A DNA stretch of 64,000 bases from Heliocybe sulcata. Lineage: Eukaryota; Basidiomycota; Agaricomycetes; Gloeophyllales; Gloeophyllaceae. This document shows positions 1,688-23,490 of this stretch, in pieces. Numbering within the stretch: position 1 is the stretch's first letter; every line of letters begins with the position of its first letter. The notes below the pieces were generated by a model that was given only the letters and a program-made list of their open reading frames with translations, was not told where the DNA came from and made no database searches. The DNA lies in assembly GCA_004369045.1 (NCBI GenBank), contig ML213510.1, positions 521,919-585,918 of the forward strand, written 5' to 3'. A program made the translations under genes and the position numbers.

Positions 1688-4639
1688 ATGGCTGGTGATC
1701 TTGAGGCTCTGCTAACGATTCCAAGTTATGATCTTAATAATTTCGAACTTTTCTTTCCAGAAAAAGACCACGGCGGCAACTACGAGCCTGTATATCTCAA
1801 GCCAAAAAATGTGAGAGGCTACACATTTCTTCTTTTTCAACTCCCGTGACGATCTATCTGTTGCATCAGGACATCAGTACCAGCACCTGCAGAGGTGGAG
1901 ATGACGGTACCATCCTCTTGAAAGCTGAAGAACATAGCCGTATTGGCCATGAGTTCTTGGGCAGGTATCGTCTGGAGGGAGACCTCCAGGTCTTGGCCAT
2001 GGCGCGCCATCACTTTCTCGAGGCTGTGTCAGGGCATCATCTAGCGGTACCATGGTGGAACTGGATTATCTATCTGAATAATATCGGAAACACCTATCAG
2101 ATGCGCCATGAGCGAAATGGTGACTTGAACGATCTGGAGGAAGCGATCAAATACTACGACTTCACTCTGAAGCACTGCCCGCCTACACACCCCGGTGTGG
2201 CTGCTTTCCATACAAATCTCGGCATTGTCTTGCTCCTTCGTTCCGAGCGGACGAGCAGTAGCGATGACATGGAAGCTGCCTTGCAGCACAAGCGGCGAGC
2301 CTTTAGTCTCTTGCGACCGGAGGATCCCCTCAGACCCAGAGCTTTGCAAGATCTAGGACATGTCCACCTCTGGCGATACCATAATACTCACAACGAGCCC
2401 GATCTGGTTGCTGCTACCTCTTACTACAAGAAGGCCCTGGAGTGCACGCCGGAGGATGACATTGATATACTTGTTAGATACAACAGTTTGGGCGTCGCTC
2501 AATGGAATCTCTATAATCGGCGCAAGCGGTCCGAAGACCTCGAAGCTGCGCTGGAAAACTGGAAGAATGCCGTAGCAAGGACGCCAGCGGAGCACCATCT
2601 ACTGCCTTATTTACAAGGAAATCTCGGTAGAGGGTACGTTACTCGTTTCAATACGGGTGGTGATGTTGAAGATATCAATAAAGCATTTGCGTACCTGAAG
2701 GACGGGATCCGATTAGTATCTGAGGACGACACACAGCTTCAACTCTACCTATACTGGGATACTTTGGCCAGCGCGTACTTCACCAAATACAAGCGGTTCG
2801 GCGACGCCGAGGACCTTAGTCAAGCTGTTCATGCCTACGAGCAGGCTATCGACACCTGCGCAGAGGGCCATTCTATCCTACCGCTGATTCTCACCCACAA
2901 GGCCGAAGCGAACCTCCATCAGCGCACTGATACTGGTCTGAACGCTGCGCTCGAGTGCTATCGCAGAGCCCTGGCGCTGGGCGTTGGCTCTCCGGACGTC
3001 CTGCTAAGAGCAGGCTACATGTTAGGCGAAAATGCCTACGCAAACAATTTGTATGAAATCGCGCTGGAAGGGTACGCAGCAGCGATGGAGCTCCTCCCGC
3101 GCACTCTATCCCTGGGCTTGGACATGCATGAACGCCGACACGTGCTAGAGCACTTCAGGTGGCTGGCAGTCGATGCTGCCGCCTGCTTTATTCAGAACGG
3201 CCGACTGCAGGGCGCGGTGGAGACCCTCGAGCACGGGAGATCTGTCATGTTTTCCCAGATGCTGAATCTCAGGACCAGCTTCGACGATCTCAAGTCGGCA
3301 CATCCGGACCTACATTCCCGGCTCGTGCACCTGTCGGAACAATTGCGAACCGTGAATGCTGAGCCTAATCTCTTTCGAGACGGCGCCGGCGTGGACGTAG
3401 GGTCAGAGGCCCTCTCTGTAGCCAGGCAATGGGAAAAGTTGATGGTCGACATACGGAGTGTACCTGAATTCTCCAATTTCCTCCAGCCGCCCTCGTTCCA
3501 GGAACTCTACCCAGAGCCAAAAGATGGCACAATCGTGATTCTTAACTGCAGCGAATGGAGATGCGATGCTTTGATTATCCCTGCTAATCGTACAGAGATA
3601 CATCTCGTTCCGCTGGACCAGATCACTCACGAGAGAGCACTACACCTCGGCGAACACGTGTCCGGCTTGGCCGCTGGCTATCGAGATGTAGTACAGGAGG
3701 GGAATATGCGTCATATTAGAAGGCAGAGACCCAAACAATCCCTTGATGACGTGCTCCAAGAGGTCTATGAGAAGGTAGTGGAACCCGTGATCGCATTAAT
3801 AGGAAGCATGCAGGTGAGCTGCTCAGATCCTATTCCGCCCACACCACCTGGTCTAATTTCCGATGGAGGTAACGTCTGATAGGATCTGGTGGTGTCCAAC
3901 GTCCGCATTCACTGGCTTACCATTTCATGCTGCTCTCCTCTATGCCGGGAGAAGAAACCAGGCCCTCGCTCGGTATATCTCTTCATATATACCAAGCTTG
4001 TCCTCCCTATTTCCTGGCCAGTCGTCGCCTACTATACCCTTCCAGCTACTATCCGTAGCCATATCCGAGACTGAAGGGCATGATTCACTTCCTGAAACCT
4101 TGACCGAGGCTCAGTATATCAAAGCGATCGTTGATGCAGACCTTCGTGCCAGTCTGGTCAACCAGGAAGTCTCTCCCGCGAGTATCGCAGAGATTCTTCC
4201 TCGATGTTCCTGGGCACATTTCTCCTGCCATGGTGTCCAAGATAACGAAGATCCGTTCAAAAGTGGGCTGGTCATGCCTGACGGGGGACGGCTGCAGCTA
4301 TCCGACCTGATGACCCTCGAGCTTCCTGCTGCGCAGTTCGTCTTCCTCTCAGCATGTCAGACCGGCACGGGCGATATCGCACTTCTCGACGAAGCTCTAC
4401 ACCTTGCGGGAGGGTTCCTGTTCGCAGGATTCAAGAGCGCCATTGCCACGCTGTGGTCTATGAACGACTTGGATGGACCTGCGGTTGCGCAGGAGGTGTA
4501 TTCCTATCTCTTTAGAGATGGGAAGCATATCCCGGACCTGTCGGAAGTCCCCCGCGCTTTGCATCGTGCTGTCTTGAAGCTCCAGGGGAGAGGTATCTCG
4601 ACTGAGCGGTGGGTGCCGTTCATACATATGGGTGTTTAG
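1688..4639 (+). CDS. TPR-repeat protein with C-terminal CHAT peptidase domain
   Basis: I read three exons: 1688-1810, 1870-3813 and 3869-4639, all joined in phase 0 by 55-59 nt GT-AG introns, giving about 945 residues. The large middle exon has no ATG near its 5' end, and the 41-codon first exon starting at 1688 supplies one. The N-terminal two thirds are repeated TPR-type helices, recognisable by recurring patterns such as LGRGY..RFN.GGDVEDI and alternating ALE/YK helices. The C-terminal ~300 residues are a CHAT (caspase HetF-associated with TPRs) domain. It shows the entry motif RIWWCPT, the catalytic His in AHFSCHG and the catalytic Cys in FLSACQTGTG, so the His-Cys dyad looks intact. Such proteins are multiplied in Agaricomycetes. 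CHAT domains are cysteine peptidases related to caspases and separase, and some act in regulated cell death or defence. The substrate here is unknown. A decayed copy of the C-terminus follows directly. Confidence 0.85.
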
Positions 4640-4658
4640 GACGCAGCTGGTGTTCACT

Positions 4659-4807
4659 TCATGGTCGATGAACGACAGTGACGGTCCTCTGCCAAGGAGG
4701 TCTATTCGTACCTTTCGAGGGATGGAAGGGACACGCCGGATTTATCTGAAGTTCCACGAGCTCTGCACCTTGCTGTGTTGAAGCTGCGGGATCCTGGTGG
4801 TATCTGA
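4659..4807 (+). pseudogene. Remnant of a second CHAT C-terminus (tandem partial copy)
   Basis: Just after the stop of the TPR-CHAT gene, the DNA translates to WSMND.DGP, then after one reading-frame change to EVYSYLSRDG..., then PDLSEVPRALH.AVLKL. These match the last ~45 residues of the upstream gene (WSMNDLDGP...EVYSYLFRDG...PDLSEVPRALHRAVLKL). The upstream part of the domain, including both catalytic residues, is absent. It ends at its own TGA at 4805. The best explanation is a tandem duplication that has mostly been deleted. Confidence 0.8.
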
Positions 4808-5146
4808 GTGGAGCATTAAACACGGGTACATTACATTACAAGGTTATCATATTTAGGGGCACATCTACGGATATAAAACGACATTGAACTTCCATACAAA
4901 GATGTATTAGTATTTATTAGGGAGCGACAACAGCGACAAAGCGTAGCATAGATACATTCTCGGATGAGATCATACGATACAAAAGCATGCAAGGGAATTT
5001 GCAAGAAGAGGTATACTATAAGCTACATTATTGATTGACAACATAAGACAGAGGTCCCAAGCGTGGACGGATCAACCGCCCTCGTCCGTAACAGTCATAA
5101 TCAGTCTTCGAATCCCGTATGAATCATAGCATCGTCGCACCCCACA
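4808..5146. other. Intergenic, convergent 3' ends
   Basis: AT-rich spacer between the CHAT remnant and the 3' end of the minus-strand gene at 5147. I see nothing specific in it apart from likely 3' untranslated sequence. Confidence 0.5.
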
Positions 5147-7924: not shown

Positions 7925-10022
7925 ATGGCGCTCTCTACAGTCGCCCAGATCGAGTCTTCAAGCTCCCTCAGTCTCATGGACGCACTCAAGGCATCTGACA
8001 GCACGAACCTCCTCACTGTCTCTGTGTCCGTGTCGCTCAGCTCTAGCTGCTCTTCGCTCTGGTCTATCGGCGACACCCCTGCCTTCTCCTCTGTGTGCAA
8101 GGAGCCCTACAAGGGCCCAGCATTCCTGACCGTGGCTTTCAACGAGCTGAGACGCCCAGTGCTATCGAATGAAAGAGGAGTCTTCGTCTCCATCCCAACT
8201 GCACCACGCTTGGGAAATGTAGTAGTCGAGAGACGTTGCGTGAGCAGATGGACAGTGAGTTCTTCATTCGCAGAGGCATGCAGGCAACAGCATCATACTG
8301 AATGCGTTCGTGTAGGAAAAGATCTCGTCCGAACACCTCCCAGAACACGCTCCGTGGGACGACCCGCCAGAGACTCCCGAGCTCGACTGGACACCCGAAG
8401 GCTCCGTCATCCCCCATCGCAAGTTCAAAGAAGCTCTCTCAGAGATACACGCCAAAGCGCGCCCGTCAAGTGTCCTCATCGAACCACCCTCGCCTGTCGA
8501 CTGCAGTCCCCCGGGTTACAAGGCCCACAAGCGCTCCCTGTCAGCTTCCCGGCGTGAAGCGCGAGTTCTAGGCGACGAACTGTCGGTGCCCGGCCGGGAG
8601 TCCTCATCCCTGAACGTCCCACCTGGGTTGCTGAGCCCTCAAATGGTCAGCCAGCTGTGCGAGGTACCCGAGGTCGAAGTCAAGGTCAAGCTCGAGCGAC
8701 CGGTCAATCCACTCACGACGCCCATCCGAGATAACAAGCTCCGGCCTCCGACGCTCATGGTCTCCACATCCACAGCAATCATCCCCATCTCGCTCTCCTC
8801 ATCGCACAGCCTCGCCTCTCCCAACACACCTCCCTCCCTCCCTTCGCGCCTCCCTCCCCTCGCCATCCGACGCGGCAAGAAGCAGCTCACCCCTCTCAAC
8901 ATCGCCAAGGCCGTCGACCCCGCTCCAGCCACCGAGGACACGTACCCGGGCATACCTACTGCCTTCCTCGGCTCGCCTTCGCCGACCGCCTACGCGCACT
9001 CCCCTGGAGCACAGTTCTTCGCGCCTACCTTGAGGACAATCGATATGCAGCTGGACGAGATGCTCGCTGACCTGCGCGCCCGCGCCGCCGCTCTTCCTCC
9101 TGGGCGACACACTGGCTCGGCAGTGACAGACAAGTCTGTGGAAAGCCCTCCTTCCTCTGGGTCCTCGGGCTCATCTACCGACGGCTGGGCGACCGTGGAC
9201 GGCCTTTTAGAGACTTACCACCGGCAGTCAGTAACCTCCCCAACTGGAAGCGAGACCTCGCCCGAATCCTCTGCCGTCTGGAGCCTAATGCTCGCATCAC
9301 CCACCGACTCCGAGTCCTCGACGCCGGCTTCTGAAGACGACAGCATGCTCAGCAAGGACAAGGCGTCTGTTCCCGCTCAAGCTGCAACGCCTACACCGGC
9401 TGGGTCGCGTCTCTCCGCCACGGCAGGCCCCCGCCCCTCTCGCTTCTCTGACCCTCCCAAGCGCGGCATCCTCAAGACCACCAAGGTTGTGCGATTCACC
9501 GAGCCGCCCGAGGAACGCGTCAAGCTCGCTTCGCAGGGCACGGACAAGGCACCCAGCCCACCCTTGGGACTGCAAGCACCGACCGCGAAAGCAGCCATAA
9601 AGAAGCCTTCCCCGCTGCGCCAGAGCACGCCTGTTACGCCTGCCGCAAACCGGGACTCCGAGTCATCATGGTCAAGCGAGGCGGGCTCGCCTCCTCCTCC
9701 TGTCAAAGCCCGTCCTACGACGCCGGTGCGGCGCAGTCTCGGCTCTAACCGCCCAGCAAGGCCTCTCACCCCAGTGCTGATGAACCGCAGGCATACAGTC
9801 TCCCCGCAGCTCGTCAAGCCCCAGCAGCGGTACGCAACAATGCCTCATAGCCGCGCAAGTAATAGACCTTCGATGCACGCGGCGCTTCGGTCCACGGGCA
9901 CTGCGAAGCAGGGAGATGAGAATGCTGCAAGGAGGGCGGATGGTTCGATTGCTAAGGGGCCTGTTCAGGGGGAGAGGAAGGGCGGGAAGTTTAAGTCGTT
10001 GCTTGGGAAGTTGAAGGGCTGA
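7925..10022 (+). CDS. Ser/Pro-rich protein of unknown function with a GILK..KVVRF motif
   Basis: Two exons. Exon 1 starts at the ATG at 7925 and ends at 8254 (GTGAGT donor) or possibly 8239 (GTGAGC); both leave phase 0. Exon 2 runs from 8316 to 10022, for about 678 residues. Exon 2 begins EKISSEHLPEHAPWDDPPET. The middle and end are rich in Ser, Pro and Thr and look disordered. The most conserved-looking element is KRGILK followed by TTKVVRFTEPPEE. KVVRF fits the RVxF-type docking consensus for protein phosphatase 1, so PP1 binding is possible but unproven. The C-terminus is basic and ends FKSLLGKLKG, an amphipathic helix. No enzymatic domain is seen. It is convergent with PUS1, 226 bases away. 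Confidence 0.75.
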
Positions 10023-16161: not shown

Positions 16162-19076
16162 CTATGAAGTGGGTGTAACGCCATCTGGGCGTGGGCTGTC
16201 CTCGATATCCGTGTTGGCTGCAGCGAGCGGACCATCCTTGCCATCAACCACCATTGCACCCATTTTGTCAGCCAACACTCCCTCCGCGCCTCCCCGAGCT
16301 TTGTCCTGCACCGGGGGCGAGTTGGCCTTACTTCCGCCGTTGCCCGCGTTCGCCGGCCGTCGCGCCTTAGGGTTGAACAGCTCCGCAGATCCCTTGGGAG
16401 GCGGTCGCTCGAAGGCTTGCGAATCCAGGCGTGGCGTCTGGTTCGGGTTCCCATTGGAATTCGGGTACTGCACCAATGCGCTACCGTACGTGCTGGGTTG
16501 ACCCTGCTGAGGACTAGGCATTAAAATAGACCGAGTAGACGAAGAATTCGTCCAAGCGCCAGCGGTAACGGGTGCTTTAGGCGGAGGTGAGAGAGTCAGC
16601 GGTGGAAAGTCAGCAGATTGGGGAGGTGTTGGCTGAGCTTGTTGCTGACTCGAACCGTTCCTATTGTTGAGTTCGTGACGGGACTGCGGTTTAAGCCCTA
16701 CTGCCCAGTCAGGCCGAGCCGGTAATGGATGCTTAGAAGTAGTCGAAGTAGATGTAAATGTGCGCCGTGAAGACGACGATGTGGAAGAAGACTAATGAAC
16801 GAGAAGTGTTTAGTGACTGTATACGCAAGACCGACGGTAGAAGGGGACTAGAGGACAAGGAACTTACAGCAACAGAGGAAGTCTCATCGCCCGGCGTCCT
16901 ATTACCTGTGCTCAGACTGCTGACACTAGACGCACCCGACTGCCTTCGCATCGATGAATTCAAACGGGGTCCAACAGTCCCTTCCCCTCCATAGCTGCCG
17001 ATACCGGGACCATACGTCCAAGCATGGCGCGCTTGAGGAGCACCGCGTTTTCCACCATGACTCGAGCTATTCCTGGAAGACGTCCGACTATGGTTTGTAC
17101 TTCCGTTGCCCCCACCATTACCTCTGGGAGAGCCTGGGCCATTCCCCGAAGAGAAGTCGGGGTACATTAGCTGGGATTGCATGTGAGGAGACGTAGGCAT
17201 AGGCTGTGCCAAATGTGGCGGTGGCGCTGACTGAGGAGGGAAATACGGAGGCATTGGGTATTGACCGTACATATGCGGAGGACCGTACGGCGGGCCGTAG
17301 ATCGGAGCGTTGGGTGGGGGATACTGTGGGAGGGGTTGAGACGGAGATATCGCAACTGACTGGGTAGGACTCTGTTGAGGCGGCTGTCCCTGCACGGCGC
17401 CTTGGGGCGGAGGGTGCTGCTGAGGAGGAGGAGCCCAGTACGGATTGTAGCCCATGTGCGGCGGAGAGAAAGCGCCGTACGTCTCCCCGCCTGACGGGCT
17501 GACAGGCTCGGAGTGTGTCATGGGATAAGGCTGGTGTGGATAGGGGTAGGGTGCGTAGTAGGGATACGGGGCGAGGTAGCCTTGGCCGGGCGCTTGACCA
17601 GGGGGCGGGGGATAAGGGTACATGTAGGAAACATAGCCTTGTGGAGGCGGGACACCCATCTGCGACGGGTCATAGGAGCTTCCCGCCGTCGCAGGGTCAT
17701 ATAGTGAAGCATAGGTAAACGATGGTGACGCGGCACGCGAGCCGCGGGTTGAAGACCGCATAGACCTATTCGACGATCCCTTTCCACGTCTATTGTCCCT
17801 CTTGTCGTGCGCAACAGGACCTGACCATTCGCTCTCCGTCGGAGCCGTGCTGTTGCAATCGTCAATATCGCCAACGCTGCTTGTCTCCCCTCCAGAACCA
17901 GAGACAAGACTGCGAGTGGAAGAGCTACCGCTCATGTCCTTTTCCTTCTCCTTTTCTTCGAAGCCCATGAAAATCCGAGACCGGGCCTCCTTGTAGGCCG
18001 CTTCTCTCTCCTCGATCGTCATGTGTTTTTTGCTCCTACCACCAACACTACCGGACTCGGATTGATCGACATCGGATAGGTCTGCATCGTCGCCAGCAGC
18101 TGAACCAGCCTGAGAGAAGGCTTTAGAACGTCGATCCTTGGACCCGCGCGCCATGATCTTGAATGCTGGAGCAGAAGGTGCTTCCGCGGGGACTAGGTCA
18201 CTTAACCTCCGGATGGGACTGTCCAAACGAGTTATTCATGAGTTCACACGACAGACGGGAAGTCTAGGAGAAGTCTTACATCTTACTTTCGACAGTCCGT
18301 ATGATGATTAGACCCTTGGAATTAGTATCATTCTCAGGACGAAGCTTGTAATAGCCTGCGCATCGATGGACAAGTAGCTTCTGATAGGATGTGGTGGGCA
18401 AAATATCGATTTGGGTCCTTGATGAACAAATGGTAATCAGTTAACAATATTGGACTCGTTACAAACCTCATCGAAAAGAAGCATAGCACTTAGTGCAGAG
18501 ACCAAGGCAGATACGACGGCAGCTAAGCTTGGCAAGCCATGGAACCCAGAAGCGGCAAGGGCATGGTAAGAGAAATAACGATCCTCACTTTTGTTCAGCG
18601 ATGAGACCCTCCATCTGCTCGCCCAATCGCAACACGAACAACCGATCCTTGCTCCTCAAAGCCTCAACAATCGTCGGATCGACCTCAGCTTTCGACTCCT
18701 TCGGCGCGCCATCCTCGCTTCCGTCATTCTCGGCCTCCCTCTGCGGCGGCGAAGGCGCGTCGCTGGGGGCGTCAAGCGGTGAGAACGACTCAGGGCCGTC
18801 TGGCAGCGGCGGCGGCGAAACAGGCATTGAGAATTCGCGGTTGGTGGGCGTAGGCTGAAGAGGAGAGCGAGAACGCGCAGCTGCGTTCGATGACAGCGAG
18901 TCTGCGGATGACTTTCCGATGGGTGATAAGGCCGCAGAAGCGGAGAACAGCACGGGCGTCTCTGAGAATAGATGGAAGAGCGATAGGGTAGTAGCAAGAG
19001 GTCTCAGCACGCAGTAGACAAGCAAGGACAGTTCACTTGGCTTTGCCAGGCGCCCTCCTTACTCACCGAGCGACAT
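16162..19076 (-). CDS. R3H and SUZ domain RNA-binding protein
   Basis: Predicted cytoplasmic RNA-binding protein of the R3H-SUZ class (Encore/R3HDM and yeast Rbs1 relatives), which bind single-stranded RNA and affect mRNA fate. Translation starts in a 10-nt coding exon (19076-19067) and continues at 18961, giving MSLETPVLFSASA. The R3H domain follows: DPTIVEALRSKDRLFVLRLG, then TSYQKLLVHRCAGYYKL and a final strand ending in IIRTVESK. After it comes a SUZ domain (FKIMARG...MTIEEREAAYKEARSRIF.GFEE). The middle is a long Pro/Tyr/Gln-rich low-complexity region (PYPPPPGQAPGQGY type), typical of condensate-forming RNA-binding proteins. The last exon (to 16162) holds a SUZ-C-like motif, AELFNPKARRP. 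The Pro/Tyr-rich part is encoded by one long exon, whereas the R3H half is split by several short introns. Confidence 0.87.
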
Positions 19077-19276
19077 GGGTACTCAGACGACTGCGAGTGT
19101 TTAGAGCGCGCTGAACGAAGGCCCGAAAGGCAAAAACTATGCGTAGGACGTCGCGCACAGCGGCAAGGACATCAGTTCAGAGGGCAAGGATGTGTACAGA
19201 AAGCGGTCGAGTGCCCCGATGTCTGTGTCAGGAAGGTAGCCACGCAGAGATCTATCTCCCGCGGTAAATTCCCCGC

Positions 19277-19962
19277 CGCGGAGCAGGACCCTGGATAATA
19301 CTAATAGAGGTCTAATCCGAGTCCCGGTCAAAGTGGACCTCGCCAGCGTCCATGTCGGGGTCGCGTCCCGGTCAAAACGTGACACAGCCACGGCAGGTCG
19401 GATCCTCGCGTCCCGGTCAAAGTGGCCGTCCGCCGCGAGGTTGGATCCGATCCCGGTCAAAAATTAGAAGTCCGCCCGCCTCTTCAAGCCACACAGGCAT
19501 ATGCATACTCCAGAGCGCATTTCTCCCGTGAGCAATATCAATGCAGATGGCATTCTCATTAGCTCCAGCAGCTGACATTGAGGAGAGCTACATTACGAAT
19601 GACATGGGTTTTTGATCGGGGAAAAGGCTATGACTACGATGTACACCACTAGCTGTAGACTTTTCCGCCATTTTGCTGGATATTATAGCAGATGTCACAA
19701 TTCCTCTAGTTGACAAGGGTCAGAATTACATGCTTAGCCATACAGTTGCGCTTTTGATTTTTCCAAAATTGTTCTATAATTTTCGCAAATTTGGAGGTCT
19801 GATCAGGATATCCCGGTCAAATTGGCCCTGTGGCCGAGGGTCTGTGTGCGATCCCGGTCAAAATAACCCCAAAAGGAGACTCCGGGTCCCGGTCAAAAAT
19901 GTCCCGGATGGCCAACTTCCGGATCAGACCTCCATTGGTATTATCCAGGGTCCTCGCGGAGC
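19277..19962. mobile_element. Non-autonomous DNA transposon (MITE) with 8-bp target duplication
   Basis: The element spans 19285-19954 (670 bp), flanked by an exact 8-bp direct repeat, CGCGGAGC (19277-19284 and 19955-19962). Its ends are inverted repeats of about 36 bp with three mismatches. Both begin AGGACCCTGGATAATA and continue ..AAT.GAGGTCT.ATCCG. There is no transposase frame. Inside are seven copies of TCCCGGTCAAA, at 19322, 19366, 19411, 19451, 19811, 19852 and 19887, all on the plus strand. The TIR-inner sequence GGAGGTCTGATC recurs at about 19794, beside the second motif block. The 8-bp target duplication suggests a hAT-like or another 8-bp-TSD superfamily, but the terminal bases do not clearly fix it. 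The element lies between the R3H-SUZ and transporter genes. Confidence 0.88.
19322..19897 (+). repeat. Seven same-strand TCCCGGTCAAA motifs in two blocks
   Basis: Four copies at 19322-19461 (start-to-start 44, 45 and 40) and three at 19811-19897 (41 and 35). All are exact over 11 bases and in the same orientation. They sit just inside the two ends of the element and are probably protein-binding sites for mobilisation. Confidence 0.9.
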
Positions 19963-20217
19963 CTGGCCATGGGCGCTTCAGCTGCAAACCTTGTTTGGCA
20001 CAATTGCTGTGAAGCTTACGGTAATCTCGCACAAACCAAGCATATATTGTCTTGAACAAGCACGCAGAATAAATTACATTACACACCCGAAACGGCTCGC
20101 GCGACCTAAAGCATATGTCGTAACTACCACGACGTAACGCCTGGGGTAAGGCAAGCGACGCAGCACTGGCTAGTTAGCCCGACGCGTGAGGCTTCACCAC
20201 TTGGTAGATGTTAAAGC

Positions 20218-22214
20218 TTAGACTGAGCGCAGAACGCAGTCAGTACTGGCGCCGCAGCATGGAATCCAATCCGCGTACCAGAATATGAAGATAAAGGCTC
20301 CGTACGCAGCAAGTGCGGCGGACGCCCGGGTAAGCACCTTGTTCGCAGTAGGATCATTGTGCGTTAGCTGCGGTGAAGAAGCCTCACACGTGAGTCTCGT
20401 GCCTCGCGCACCAAGGATAGAGATATTTGGCAGAAGCAGGGACTCACCTTCCAGTAGAACAATCCCGGAAGAATGAATGATATCGTGGTGGAGCCAGTAG
20501 ATCCGACAAAAGACAGCACTGCGGTAGGGCCTAATTAACCAACAAAGTTCTGCCACAGTCACGCTGGTATCACGCACCCATCTGGAGGTCGTCCACGAAG
20601 TATGCAATTGTAAAGCTGCTTGCAATGATCCCGGCTGTGAGCAGGGAGTGCTTCATGGGACTCATGTCAGAGCTTCCGTGTGCTTCATCTAGCTCTTCGA
20701 CTTCAGTATCCGTCTTTGGCACATTCCCTCCGTGGAACACCTTGTCCAGGCAATTCCGGCACGGGTGCACTTGGAGCGGATACGAGAAAAGAACAAGGAT
20801 GACAATAGCTAGTTGGCCCACTGCGATGAACAGCGATGTCGACGGATACATCGCGATGATATTAGCGCCAACCTATCACACAGGCGGTAGTTAATGCCCG
20901 AACTTGACAGATAGAAGTACACCGTCGAACCTTGTTTCCAAATGTCAGATACCCGAATACGGCGATAACTTCATATGTCAAGGTGGCTGCACCGATGGAA
21001 GAGCCGACGACAATATCCATGCGCCCTTGGGTATTACTTGATAGTTCATTGAAGATAGGGAACAGCTAGTCACAGGCGAAGAATCAGCGTCCACCACAAG
21101 ACTTTACCAAAGACCGCTGACATTCTGTGCGCAAGTAAACGCAAAAACTTGCACGGGAAATGTGGAGATAAAGCTGGGGGTGAAATGGACCCACGCAATC
21201 TCTCCTTTCTCAGGCATGCCGCTCAAGGGCCGGAAATAGCAGACGATGACAATCAAGACGAGATACGCTGCCCAAGACATAAGTCAAAATGTGTGTGTTA
21301 CGCCTCCTTCGACCCACCTACGGCAAATAAGCCAATATAACTTGTGTGTCTGAGACTATGCAGATTGCGCAGGAAACATAGGGGAATCAAGATGAGCATG
21401 AACAAAGTGATCCAATTGCGACCTGATAGAGCCCACTCAGGCGGGTTGTTCGATGACAGGTCGTGATAGAGTGACTTGACGACACCAGGCATCAAGCCCT
21501 TAATAATAATGAGATAGCTGCGCAGATTCGACTGTCAACAGAAGGCCGCCCAGTAAGGATTGCGAATGATTACCTTATAGATACACCAAAGCACTTGATG
21601 GCGATTGCAGCATCAAAGAACACTGCGGCTCTAGGGAAGGTCATCTTCGCGACAGCGAAGAACGATGCTTGCCTATGCGGTGCTCTCGCAGCCGCATGCG
21701 ACAGCAGGTACAGCCCAAAGGCTGCCACGCTTCCGGAGAACAGGCACGTTATCATACCGGGTATGATGCCCGCAGAAGCCATTGCCTAAGTTCGTATCAC
21801 ATCTTATGACTTGTCCTCAGTCCGAATTGGATATGCAGCGTACCAAAGGAAATGTGAGCATACCTGACAGAATCACATTGTCATTAATGCCATTCGTTCC
21901 CAAACTGATGATGCCAAGTATTAAAGATTGAACTCACCGCTCCCAATGATCGTATTCGCGAGGTTTCCTACACTACTCGACAGCGTTGCATGTCCGTCCC
22001 TCTTCTTCTGCACTGGCGCATCTCCCCCAAGCAGCGCGCTCTGCTCACTCTCTCCGGCTACTGCAGTATCAACCTCATCGCGGTCGGGTGCAACCCCATA
22101 CGTTCGCACCATCTCGTATGCGTCTTCGTCGGATTCAGACCAAAAGCCAGGTGAAGCAGGTCGAGTAGAGAAGCTGTGAGTTGGACCGATGGGGTCGAGC
22201 GCAGAGTTCGACAA
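20218..22214 (-). CDS. Vacuolar-type amino-acid transporter (AAAP/AVT family)
   Basis: Membrane transporter of the amino acid/auxin permease family. Fungal AVT3-AVT7 members export or import neutral amino acids across the vacuolar membrane. The N-terminal ~75 residues are hydrophilic and cytosolic. The first helix carries the family motif GNLANTIIGSGMLAFPLAMA. About ten more hydrophobic helices follow, including NWITLFMLILIPLCFLRNL, AYLVLIVIVCYF, FAFTCAQNLFPIFNEL and LSFVGSTGSTTISFILPGLF, matching the family order. Many short introns split it. The stop is at 20218. The 5' end is uncertain: the frame is open up to 22214 without an ATG, the first in-frame ATG (22112) would cut the leader, and a short upstream exon may exist. 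A hAT-like element begins ~190 bases upstream of the open frame, so it may lie in the promoter or 5' UTR. Confidence 0.85.
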
Positions 22215-22394: not shown

Positions 22395-23490
22395 GCCACA
22401 ATTAGTGTTGCCGCAGCGCCAGCGCCAGGGCCACCCCAGCGCGATTCGAGTGCGCGCTGGGTCACCTCAGTGCCACGCTACCCTACGTAGCAGCGCCGCT
22501 GGCCTTAGCTGATCTCTATTACGGATTATGCCGAGAGGTGAACTACTCTAACGAAGTCTGCACTAAGTACTACAGTTGAATATTAGAGTCCTCGATATCT
22601 TCGTTGAGGGCCNNNNNNNNNNNNNNNNNNNNNNNNNNNNNNNNNNNNNNNNNNNNNNNNNNNNNNNNNNNNNNNNNNNNNNNNNNNNNNNNNNNNNNNN
22701 NNNNNNNNNNNNNNNNNNNNNNNNNNNNNNNNNNNNNNNNNNNNNNNNNNNNNNNNNNNNNNNNNNNNNNNNNNNNNNNNNNNNNNNNNNNNNNNNNNNN
22801 NNNNNNNNNNNNNNNNNNNNNNNNNNNNNNNNNNNNNNNNNNNNNNNNNNNNNNNNNNNNNNNNNNNNNNNNNNNNNNNNNNNNNNNNNNNNNNNNNNNN
22901 NNNNNNNNNNNNNNNNNNNNNNNNNNNNNNNNNNNNNNNNNNNNNNNNNNNNNNNNNNNNNNNNNNNNNNNNNNNNNGTCCCGCACATCCAGGTTCTTTT
23001 CCTTTTCCCGAGCATCAAGCATCCGAGAAGATAGCCGGATGATGTTAGCAAGACATTCCGGTATGCAGCTGAACAGGCTGTTGAGAATATACATATGTTA
23101 AGTTCCGAGAAGATTGCCCATGCAGCAGTGTTGCCGGCAAATCTTGAGAATATTAATATTCATAGCAGTAGTGTCGGCCTGGGGACAAGTGCAGTTTGGG
23201 CCTGCCTCGGCCGCAGCAGCACAGAATATAGATAGAAAGATGTCATTATACATTTATATTACAAAAAGACGCAGGGAAAGACTAGAGTGGAGGCCCATTA
23301 CGGCATAAAACAAAGCGACGACGCGCCAGCCACCAGTGGCGGATGAACACGTGATCGCAACCAGCGCCACTCTGGAGCCGACCAGGGTGCTGCAGGGTCA
23401 CTCTGTCAGCAGGCAGAGTTGCCACTCTGGGAGCCAGCGGCAGCGCAACTCCAAGCTCACCCTGGCGCTGCGGCAACACTAGCCACAATT
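22395..23490. mobile_element. Non-autonomous hAT-like transposon with 8-bp target duplication (contains the gap)
   Basis: The element is 22403-23482, flanked by the exact 8-bp direct repeat GCCACAAT (22395-22402 and 23483-23490). The ends are perfect inverted repeats for 20 bases, beginning TAGTGTTGCCGCAGCG, which fits the hAT terminal pattern YARNG. GC-rich subterminal sequence with many GCGCTGG/CCAGCGC motifs lies inside both ends, with an AT-rich middle. No transposase frame is seen, although 365 bases are missing in the gap, so total length (1080 bp) and coding content are provisional. It sits upstream of the transporter gene. Confidence 0.88.
22613..22977. other. Assembly gap (365 N)
   Basis: Run of N inside the hAT-like element, consistent with repeat-caused assembly failure. 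Confidence 0.99.

Follow-up and report, generated by a model that had tools for sequence, protein, structure and literature searches.

The window is a 64-kb stretch of DNA. It contains a 670-bp non-coding element at 19285-19954 (Table 1). A minus-strand frame with a SUZ domain (16733-18226) has the element on its 5' side, and a mechanical minus-strand ORF follows the element at 20218-20625. A run of N, either a gap or a withheld stretch, occupies 22613-22977, and mechanical ORFs cross it.

Table 1. Coordinates of the element and its parts in the window
Feature	Position	Strand	Remark
Left target-site duplication CGCGGAGC	19277..19284	.	Directly outside the left end, exact
Left terminal inverted repeat	19285..19319	+	Inner part is half-site A (GGTCTAATC)
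Motif site 1 TCCCGGTCAAA	19322..19332	+	2 bp inside the left inverted repeat
Motif site 2	19366..19376	+	Without clear half-site A upstream
Motif site 3	19411..19421	+	Half-site A GGTCGGATC 6 bp upstream
Motif site 4	19451..19461	+	Half-site A GGTTGGATC 3 bp upstream
Variable non-coding middle	19462..19790	.	25% mismatch between copies, most indels
GGAGGTCTGATC, recurring from the inner part of the inverted repeat; half-site A for site 5	19793..19804	+	
Motif site 5	19811..19821	+	GGAGGTCTGATC ends 6 bp before site 5
Motif site 6	19852..19862	+	
Motif site 7	19887..19897	+	22 bp inside the right inverted repeat, without clear half-site A
Right terminal inverted repeat	19920..19954	-	91% complementary to the left repeat
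Right target-site duplication CGCGGAGC	19955..19962	.	Directly outside the right end, exact

The window element

The inverted ends are 35 nt each and 91% complementary. Between them the element contains seven exact copies of TCCCGGTCAAA, all on the plus strand, with four in the left block and three in the right. No further copy at up to one mismatch was found elsewhere in the 64-kb window. The same search in 100 dinucleotide shuffles gave a mean count of 1.08 and a maximum of 4. An earlier note on this DNA had described a non-coding element with inverted ends and an exact 8-bp duplication, seven one-strand 11-bp motifs in two blocks, and a recurrence of inner inverted-repeat sequence by the right block. 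These features were upheld. The middle of the element also contains an opposite-strand near-site with two mismatches (19611-19621, element position 327), so the one-way claim is limited to exact sites.

Mechanical ORF calling gives two frames, of 107 and 154 aa, that overlap the element and extend beyond its edges. Eight translated stretches were compared with Pfam, three from the window copy (these two ORFs and a further 107-aa frame) and five from other copies of both families described below. None had a match past the cut-off; one match at E 0.1 did not pass it. Rfam returned nothing at gathering score in window positions 19200-20100. The single-strand fold of the element, in which the long inverted ends pair, has a z of -5.2 over 20 shuffles; it was not read as evidence of an RNA function.

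Copies of the family and of its motif

The genome searched comprised 31.6 Mb in 51 contigs; its KDZ and Plavaka transposase matches point to a probable fungus of basidiomycete type. At least 15 two-ended copies of the window element's family (the first family) were retrieved by whole-genome DNA search. Perfect 8-bp duplications flank 12 of the 15, and all 12 differ in sequence. The copies C9 (L067, C9:36756-38197), C17 (L065) and C20b (L066) are two-ended without a target duplication; flank rearrangement or deletion is possible in these cases. C9 has a long N gap in its middle. A solo end is present at C3:446587-446628 (L062:188-229), followed by AT-rich sequence; beyond it, exact string matching over about 20 kb gave no second end. 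A decayed end at C35:124465 was added by pattern search.

Between the window copy and that of C6, 2 of 670 positions are different, which points to recent movement. Both ends start with AGGACCC in 14 of the 15 copies. C20b has one AGGATCC, and several of its sites are changed. C24b is a 387-bp deletion copy that keeps six sites. Exact TCCCGGTCAAA sites in the family run in one direction relative to the element (94/94). Eight of the 15 copies contain an opposite-strand near-site in the middle, with two mismatches in seven and one in C8b. It could be a decayed site or a chance match.

The family is short and non-coding, with inverted ends, and its multiple copies have duplications of constant length, as in MITEs. 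The earlier note had proposed a family of MITEs that make 8-bp duplications and have a polar array in both halves, and had named as contrary outcomes the absence of a second copy or flanks without such duplications. Both were looked for, and the proposal survived.

The motif is concentrated in the elements. TCCCGGTCAAA occurs 117 times genome-wide, 94 times inside elements and 23 times outside, and a reversed-pattern control occurs 6 times. Positions are known for 100 of the 117 among the matches listed; the other 17 equal the number due from the C24 and C27 copies. Fifteen of the outside copies are single. The other eight are paired within one unrelated four-copy repeat (L069-L072: twice on C4, once each on C6 and C7), which carries TCCCGGTCAAA twice per copy and comes in two variants, one stepped by 15 bp and the other by 19 bp. 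This pairing looks like local tandem duplication.

Four viral-contig matches (L100-L103) contain two TCCCGGTCAAA each. They are of two context kinds, with two contigs each: one pair are near-identical stretches, and the other pair carry a repeat that by eye appears collagen-like and coding. AGGACCC was not found on the plus strand of the four viral contigs. L101 contains three GGGTCCT. An exact search of prokaryote genomes gave no match to the first family's ends.

A sister family on the same grid

A relaxed end search retrieved a sister family with ends AGGACCCCCGATAATAG, whose nine two-ended elements are 831 to 941 bp long. Perfect 8-bp duplications flank all nine copies, and in all nine the ends begin with AGGACCC. 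Across both families, 21 of 24 copies have 8-bp duplications. By their near-identical copies, both families are apparently recently active. The sister family lacks TCCCGGTCAAA and repeats TCCGGACAAA instead. All 60 exact TCCGGACAAA sites in it run in one direction, which is read from the CAAA flank because the core TCCGGA is palindromic. Tandem TCCGGACAAA pairs number 42 genome-wide, and all lie within the nine sister copies.

A 72-aa frame lies near the right block of one sister copy (L088:613-828). It is matched in all nine copies, in some with stops or shifts. Its genome matches, at E up to 1, fall only in sister copies, and it has no Pfam match. It could be a coding remnant or a product of chance.

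The two motifs occupy nearly the same positions. Sites start at 38/82/126/168 from the left end in the sister family and at 38/82/127/167 in the window copy; they end at 56/90/130 and 57/92/133 from the right end, respectively. Site coordinates thus differ between families by 0, 0, 1, 1, 1, 2 and 3 bp. Single copies of both families vary by 1 to 3 bp, and C20b and C24b by more. No random placement in 200,000 reached this total agreement (the 200,000 include draws that were skipped because sites lay less than 11 bp apart), and 11 of 200,000 periodic arrays placed at random did.

The sequence between the sites is largely unrelated in the one representative per family that was aligned. Against shuffles, six of the seven spacer pieces show no better alignment (p 0.14-0.71); the seventh has p 0.042. 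The two ends align above shuffles (0/1000 each), and 26 positions of the left 37 bp are identical. Neither family contains the exact motif of the other. At one mismatch, the other family's motif occurs once each in C10 and C21, in both cases off the grid and on the opposite strand. Among the 24 copies, none has mixed motifs.

The inner inverted repeat also differs. It reads GGTCTRATC in the first family and TGCCTGATC in the sister family. A half-site related to it, GGTCTGATC in the first family, recurs before several sites in both the left and the right block. For sites 2-7, the 24 bp upstream of each site were searched for the family's own version, and the summed best match was compared with shuffles. 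Three first-family copies (window, C17 and C20a) and two sister copies were used. On the same strand as the sites, shuffles reached the observed sum in 0 of 5000 cases for the window copy and for both sister copies, and P was 0.0004 for C17 and C20a. On the opposite strand, none of the five copies scored above shuffles (P 0.34-0.84). The sister version did not score above shuffles in the first family (P 0.11-0.23). Clear half-site A matches lie 3 to 6 bp from their site. The repeated unit appears to be bipartite, with both halves differing between the families.

Within the first family, mismatch is lowest in the motifs. The window copy was compared with C8b, C10, C12, C17, C19, C20a, C20b and C27. 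The count omitted C6, C9, C18, C21, C24a and C24b, in most cases because they are near-duplicates; further grounds were the N gap of C9 and the deletion of C24b. Mismatch was 1.5% in motifs, 4.6-8.1% in inverted ends, 11.4% in left spacers, 18.3% in right spacers and 25% in the middle. The middle contains 54 of the 66 indel events. In the sister family, mismatch was 0.5% in motifs, 7.7% in left spacers, 0.8% in right spacers and 6.5% in the middle. Spacer indel events numbered seven in left and none in right spacers of the first family, and one and none in the sister family.

Known systems and interpretation

No autonomous element or transposase with matching ends was found in the assembly by searches with the ends, the motif and the full element. 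The autonomous partner that the earlier note had asked for was thus looked for and not retrieved. It may be lost, in an assembly gap or present in other strains. Many MITE families are orphans, so a missing partner is no bar to MITE membership. Two relaxed end patterns gave 35 and 12 matches beyond the known ends, versus 29 and 11 in their reversed controls. The full sister element as query retrieved only the nine sister copies in the genome. A third family was sought with AGGACCC plus GGNCAAA and rejected: 22 of the 43 matches were known copies, and the 21 others, versus 20 in the control, included none alike by eye.

The genome contains transposase fragments of several kinds. There are 21 KDZ matches, grouped into 11 loci, nine hAT-dimer matches and five MULE matches. 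No matching ends were found in the two KDZ loci read of the 11 (L097 and L098) or in the one hAT locus read of the nine. L098 contains a KDZ fragment (3976-4893; 27.7 bits, cut-off 26.6) and, about 4 kb away, a Plavaka-like fragment (8674-9165; 23.5 bits, below the cut-off of 26.3).

An 8-bp duplication, as in 21 of the 24 copies, fits both hAT and KDZ (Zisupton/Dileera) elements. The hAT target consensus is nTnnnnAn, and 4 of the 21 duplications match it. Ends of hAT elements begin with CAG/TAG. Neither family has this start; their ends begin with AGGACCC. The duplications are never of 9 bp. In Muta1, a MULE, duplications of 8 and 9 bp both occur (PMC5225508).

Hermes resembles both families in its 8-bp target, its inverted ends with short subterminal repeats and its asymmetric ends, and its repeats are bound by the transposase (PMC10368747). 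The orientation is antisense for LE-STR2 to 7 and sense for RE-STR1 to 5. If both ends are read tip-inward, as figure legends suggest, these repeats seem to lie on one strand of the whole element. Polarity alone therefore seems to have a precedent. The earlier note had held that classical elements carry their sites in mirrored orientation; that was too general, and polarity is less odd than it had claimed. The first left-end repeats of Hermes are bound in rigid phase, and cleavage suffers from a shift of one base. Little or no activity is left in elements that have two left ends, and these are not rescued when asymmetry is restored within the first 50 bp of one of their ends. Mutation of further putative sites inside the left end does not greatly reduce activity (PMC10368747). 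Hermes offers an earlier example of sites in rigid phase and of ends that are not alike. It differs in its 4-bp site, AAGT (AAGC), and its quasi-palindromic left-end pair; a grid of about 40 bp with an 11-bp site is not described in the part of the paper covered. Both families also differ in that no hAT transposase is linked to their ends.

Other systems share single features. The repeat polarity of Kat1, a hAT protein, is described as differing between the two ends (PMC4763223). Herves, also a hAT, has a short subterminal motif at both ends that its transposase binds. Its left and right binding differ, and the right inverted repeat is bound but not the left. The Herves motif is of 8 bp and another sequence, and its transposase is known (PMC3143072). 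The P element of Drosophila has 31-bp inverted repeats, 8-bp duplications and 10-bp transposase sites. The distance from inverted repeat to site is 9 and 21 bp there and 2 and 22 bp in the window element. The P element has inverted 11-bp subterminal repeats, and a polar array is not described in the sections covered. THAP domains are not found in fungi (PMC7776569). Zisupton and Zisupton-1_PGr, a Dileera, are reported to make 8-bp duplications, as both families do (PMC12730594). KDZ transposase genes are present in the genome. In maize, the inverted ends and some repeated subterminal transposase sites can be all that a non-autonomous element has in common with Ac; Ac/Ds differs in its 11-bp inverted ends, its AAACGG hexamers and its known autonomous Ac (PMC3260210).

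The literature search found, among the matches listed, no title on a polar array of comparable kind, and it found no description of the first family. An exact-sequence search of the literature found neither 17-bp end among the matches listed. A pair of families keeping grid and direction with a differing motif was not found either; the nearest are the soybean CACTA subfamilies Tgm1 and Tgmt*. These share one species and have different subterminal motifs and asymmetric ends, and their motif difference is proposed to parallel diversity of the binding protein. They differ in their 3-bp duplication, CACTA ends and repeats with many stem-loops (PMC2613891).

We consider the element a non-autonomous cut-and-paste MITE of one of two related, recently moved families. 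Its transposase would be supplied in trans, and its arrays would bind an element-encoded protein. We put the probability of this reading at about 0.65. The seven sites, with the upstream half-site of several, would be bound by the protein of an autonomous relative, either a transposase or a helper of the TNPA kind. The array direction is constant, so the left end would present site 1 at 2 bp and the right end site 7, reversed, at 22 bp. The one-way array makes the two ends non-equivalent. Such unlike ends may favour the pairing of one left with one right end and suppress that of two left or two right ends. The proteins of the two families would differ in DNA-binding specificity, and this change, seen as the difference in motif, would act on the inner inverted repeat as well as on all seven sites. 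Sites and inner inverted repeat differ in parallel on a near-fixed grid, as would be expected of an element-encoded reader whose specificity has changed. This suggests that the sites are read by the element's own mobilising protein and not by a host protein.

The earlier note had raised a host factor as a binder of the motifs. They would then be captured sites of, for example, a zinc-cluster regulator, giving promoter or enhancer activity. The arrays lie on one strand, and CGG-containing asymmetric motifs presumably resemble fungal regulator sites; we counted both points in its favour. The Hermes authors also consider a cellular factor, which may act on inner ends (PMC10368747). Against it, two families in one genome have different motifs on a near-identical grid, and motif and inner inverted repeat differ together, a parallel change that a host factor does not predict. 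Outside the elements the 11-mer has 23 copies, compared with 6 in all for its reversed control, and it clusters there only as the pairs of one unrelated repeat. These results disfavour the host factor, and we regard it as improbable.

The earlier note had also derived the right half from a duplicated left end, which would make the polarity a functionless historical accident. The recurrence of GGAGGTCTGATC before site 5 favours this. With motifs masked, alignments of left and right blocks in three copies do not clearly support it. Direct and inverted scores were equal in the window copy (12 and 12, p 0.078 each) and in C17 (8 and 8, p 0.72); one sister copy gave 13 for direct (p 0.018) and 11 for inverted (p 0.10), a point on its side. 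Grid and direction persist in both families, most of whose spacers have diverged beyond alignment, and this again tells against a duplicated end. We hold the proposal to be unlikely. It and the host factor explain less than an element-encoded binder. A further possibility is that the grid was kept only through few indels since the families split, with the motif swapped at seven places by recombination or conversion. Spacer indels are indeed rare within families, and site number and order are equal in both. Conversion would be expected to carry spacer along, however, whereas six of seven spacer pieces are unalignable, and a mixed-motif copy is missing among the 24. We judge this very unlikely.

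Several observations count against the element-encoded binder. The absence of a found autonomous element and the middle near-sites are among them. C24b is without one site yet has its duplication, and several sites of C20b are changed. Five first-family indel events were placed in motifs by the alignment. The palindromic core of TCCGGACAAA leaves the direction of this motif to its flank, and three TCCGGACAAA sites per sister copy also match the opposite strand with one mismatch. Sites 2 and 7 of the window copy have no clear half-site A. In the sister copies, the first family's half-site weakly exceeds shuffles (P 0.005 and 0.012), because both versions share CTGATC. Right spacers of the sister family are about as conserved as its motifs, so its right block provides no contrast. 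The Hermes results on mutated left-end sites and on restored asymmetry also weigh here, as does the cellular factor that the Hermes authors consider (PMC10368747). Polarity could also be one inherited event without function, since two related families amount to one comparison.

A bolder extension of the element-encoded reading makes both families the visible part of an undescribed transposase lineage. Its ends would be told apart by direction and defined by seven bipartite sites, arrayed obligately one way on a fixed grid of about 40 bp. Its specificity would have switched between TCCCGGTCAAA and TCCGGACAAA and between GGTCTGATC and TGCCTGATC without a change of grid. We find this extension unlikely.

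The genome contains two lately active families, and the assembly yielded no enzyme that mobilises them. Together they form a natural swap experiment, with nearly the same grid and direction and a different motif. If the binding protein is found, the pair would separate what the transposition complex needs in spacing and direction from what it needs in sequence. It would also be a clean case for end asymmetry preventing wrong end pairing.
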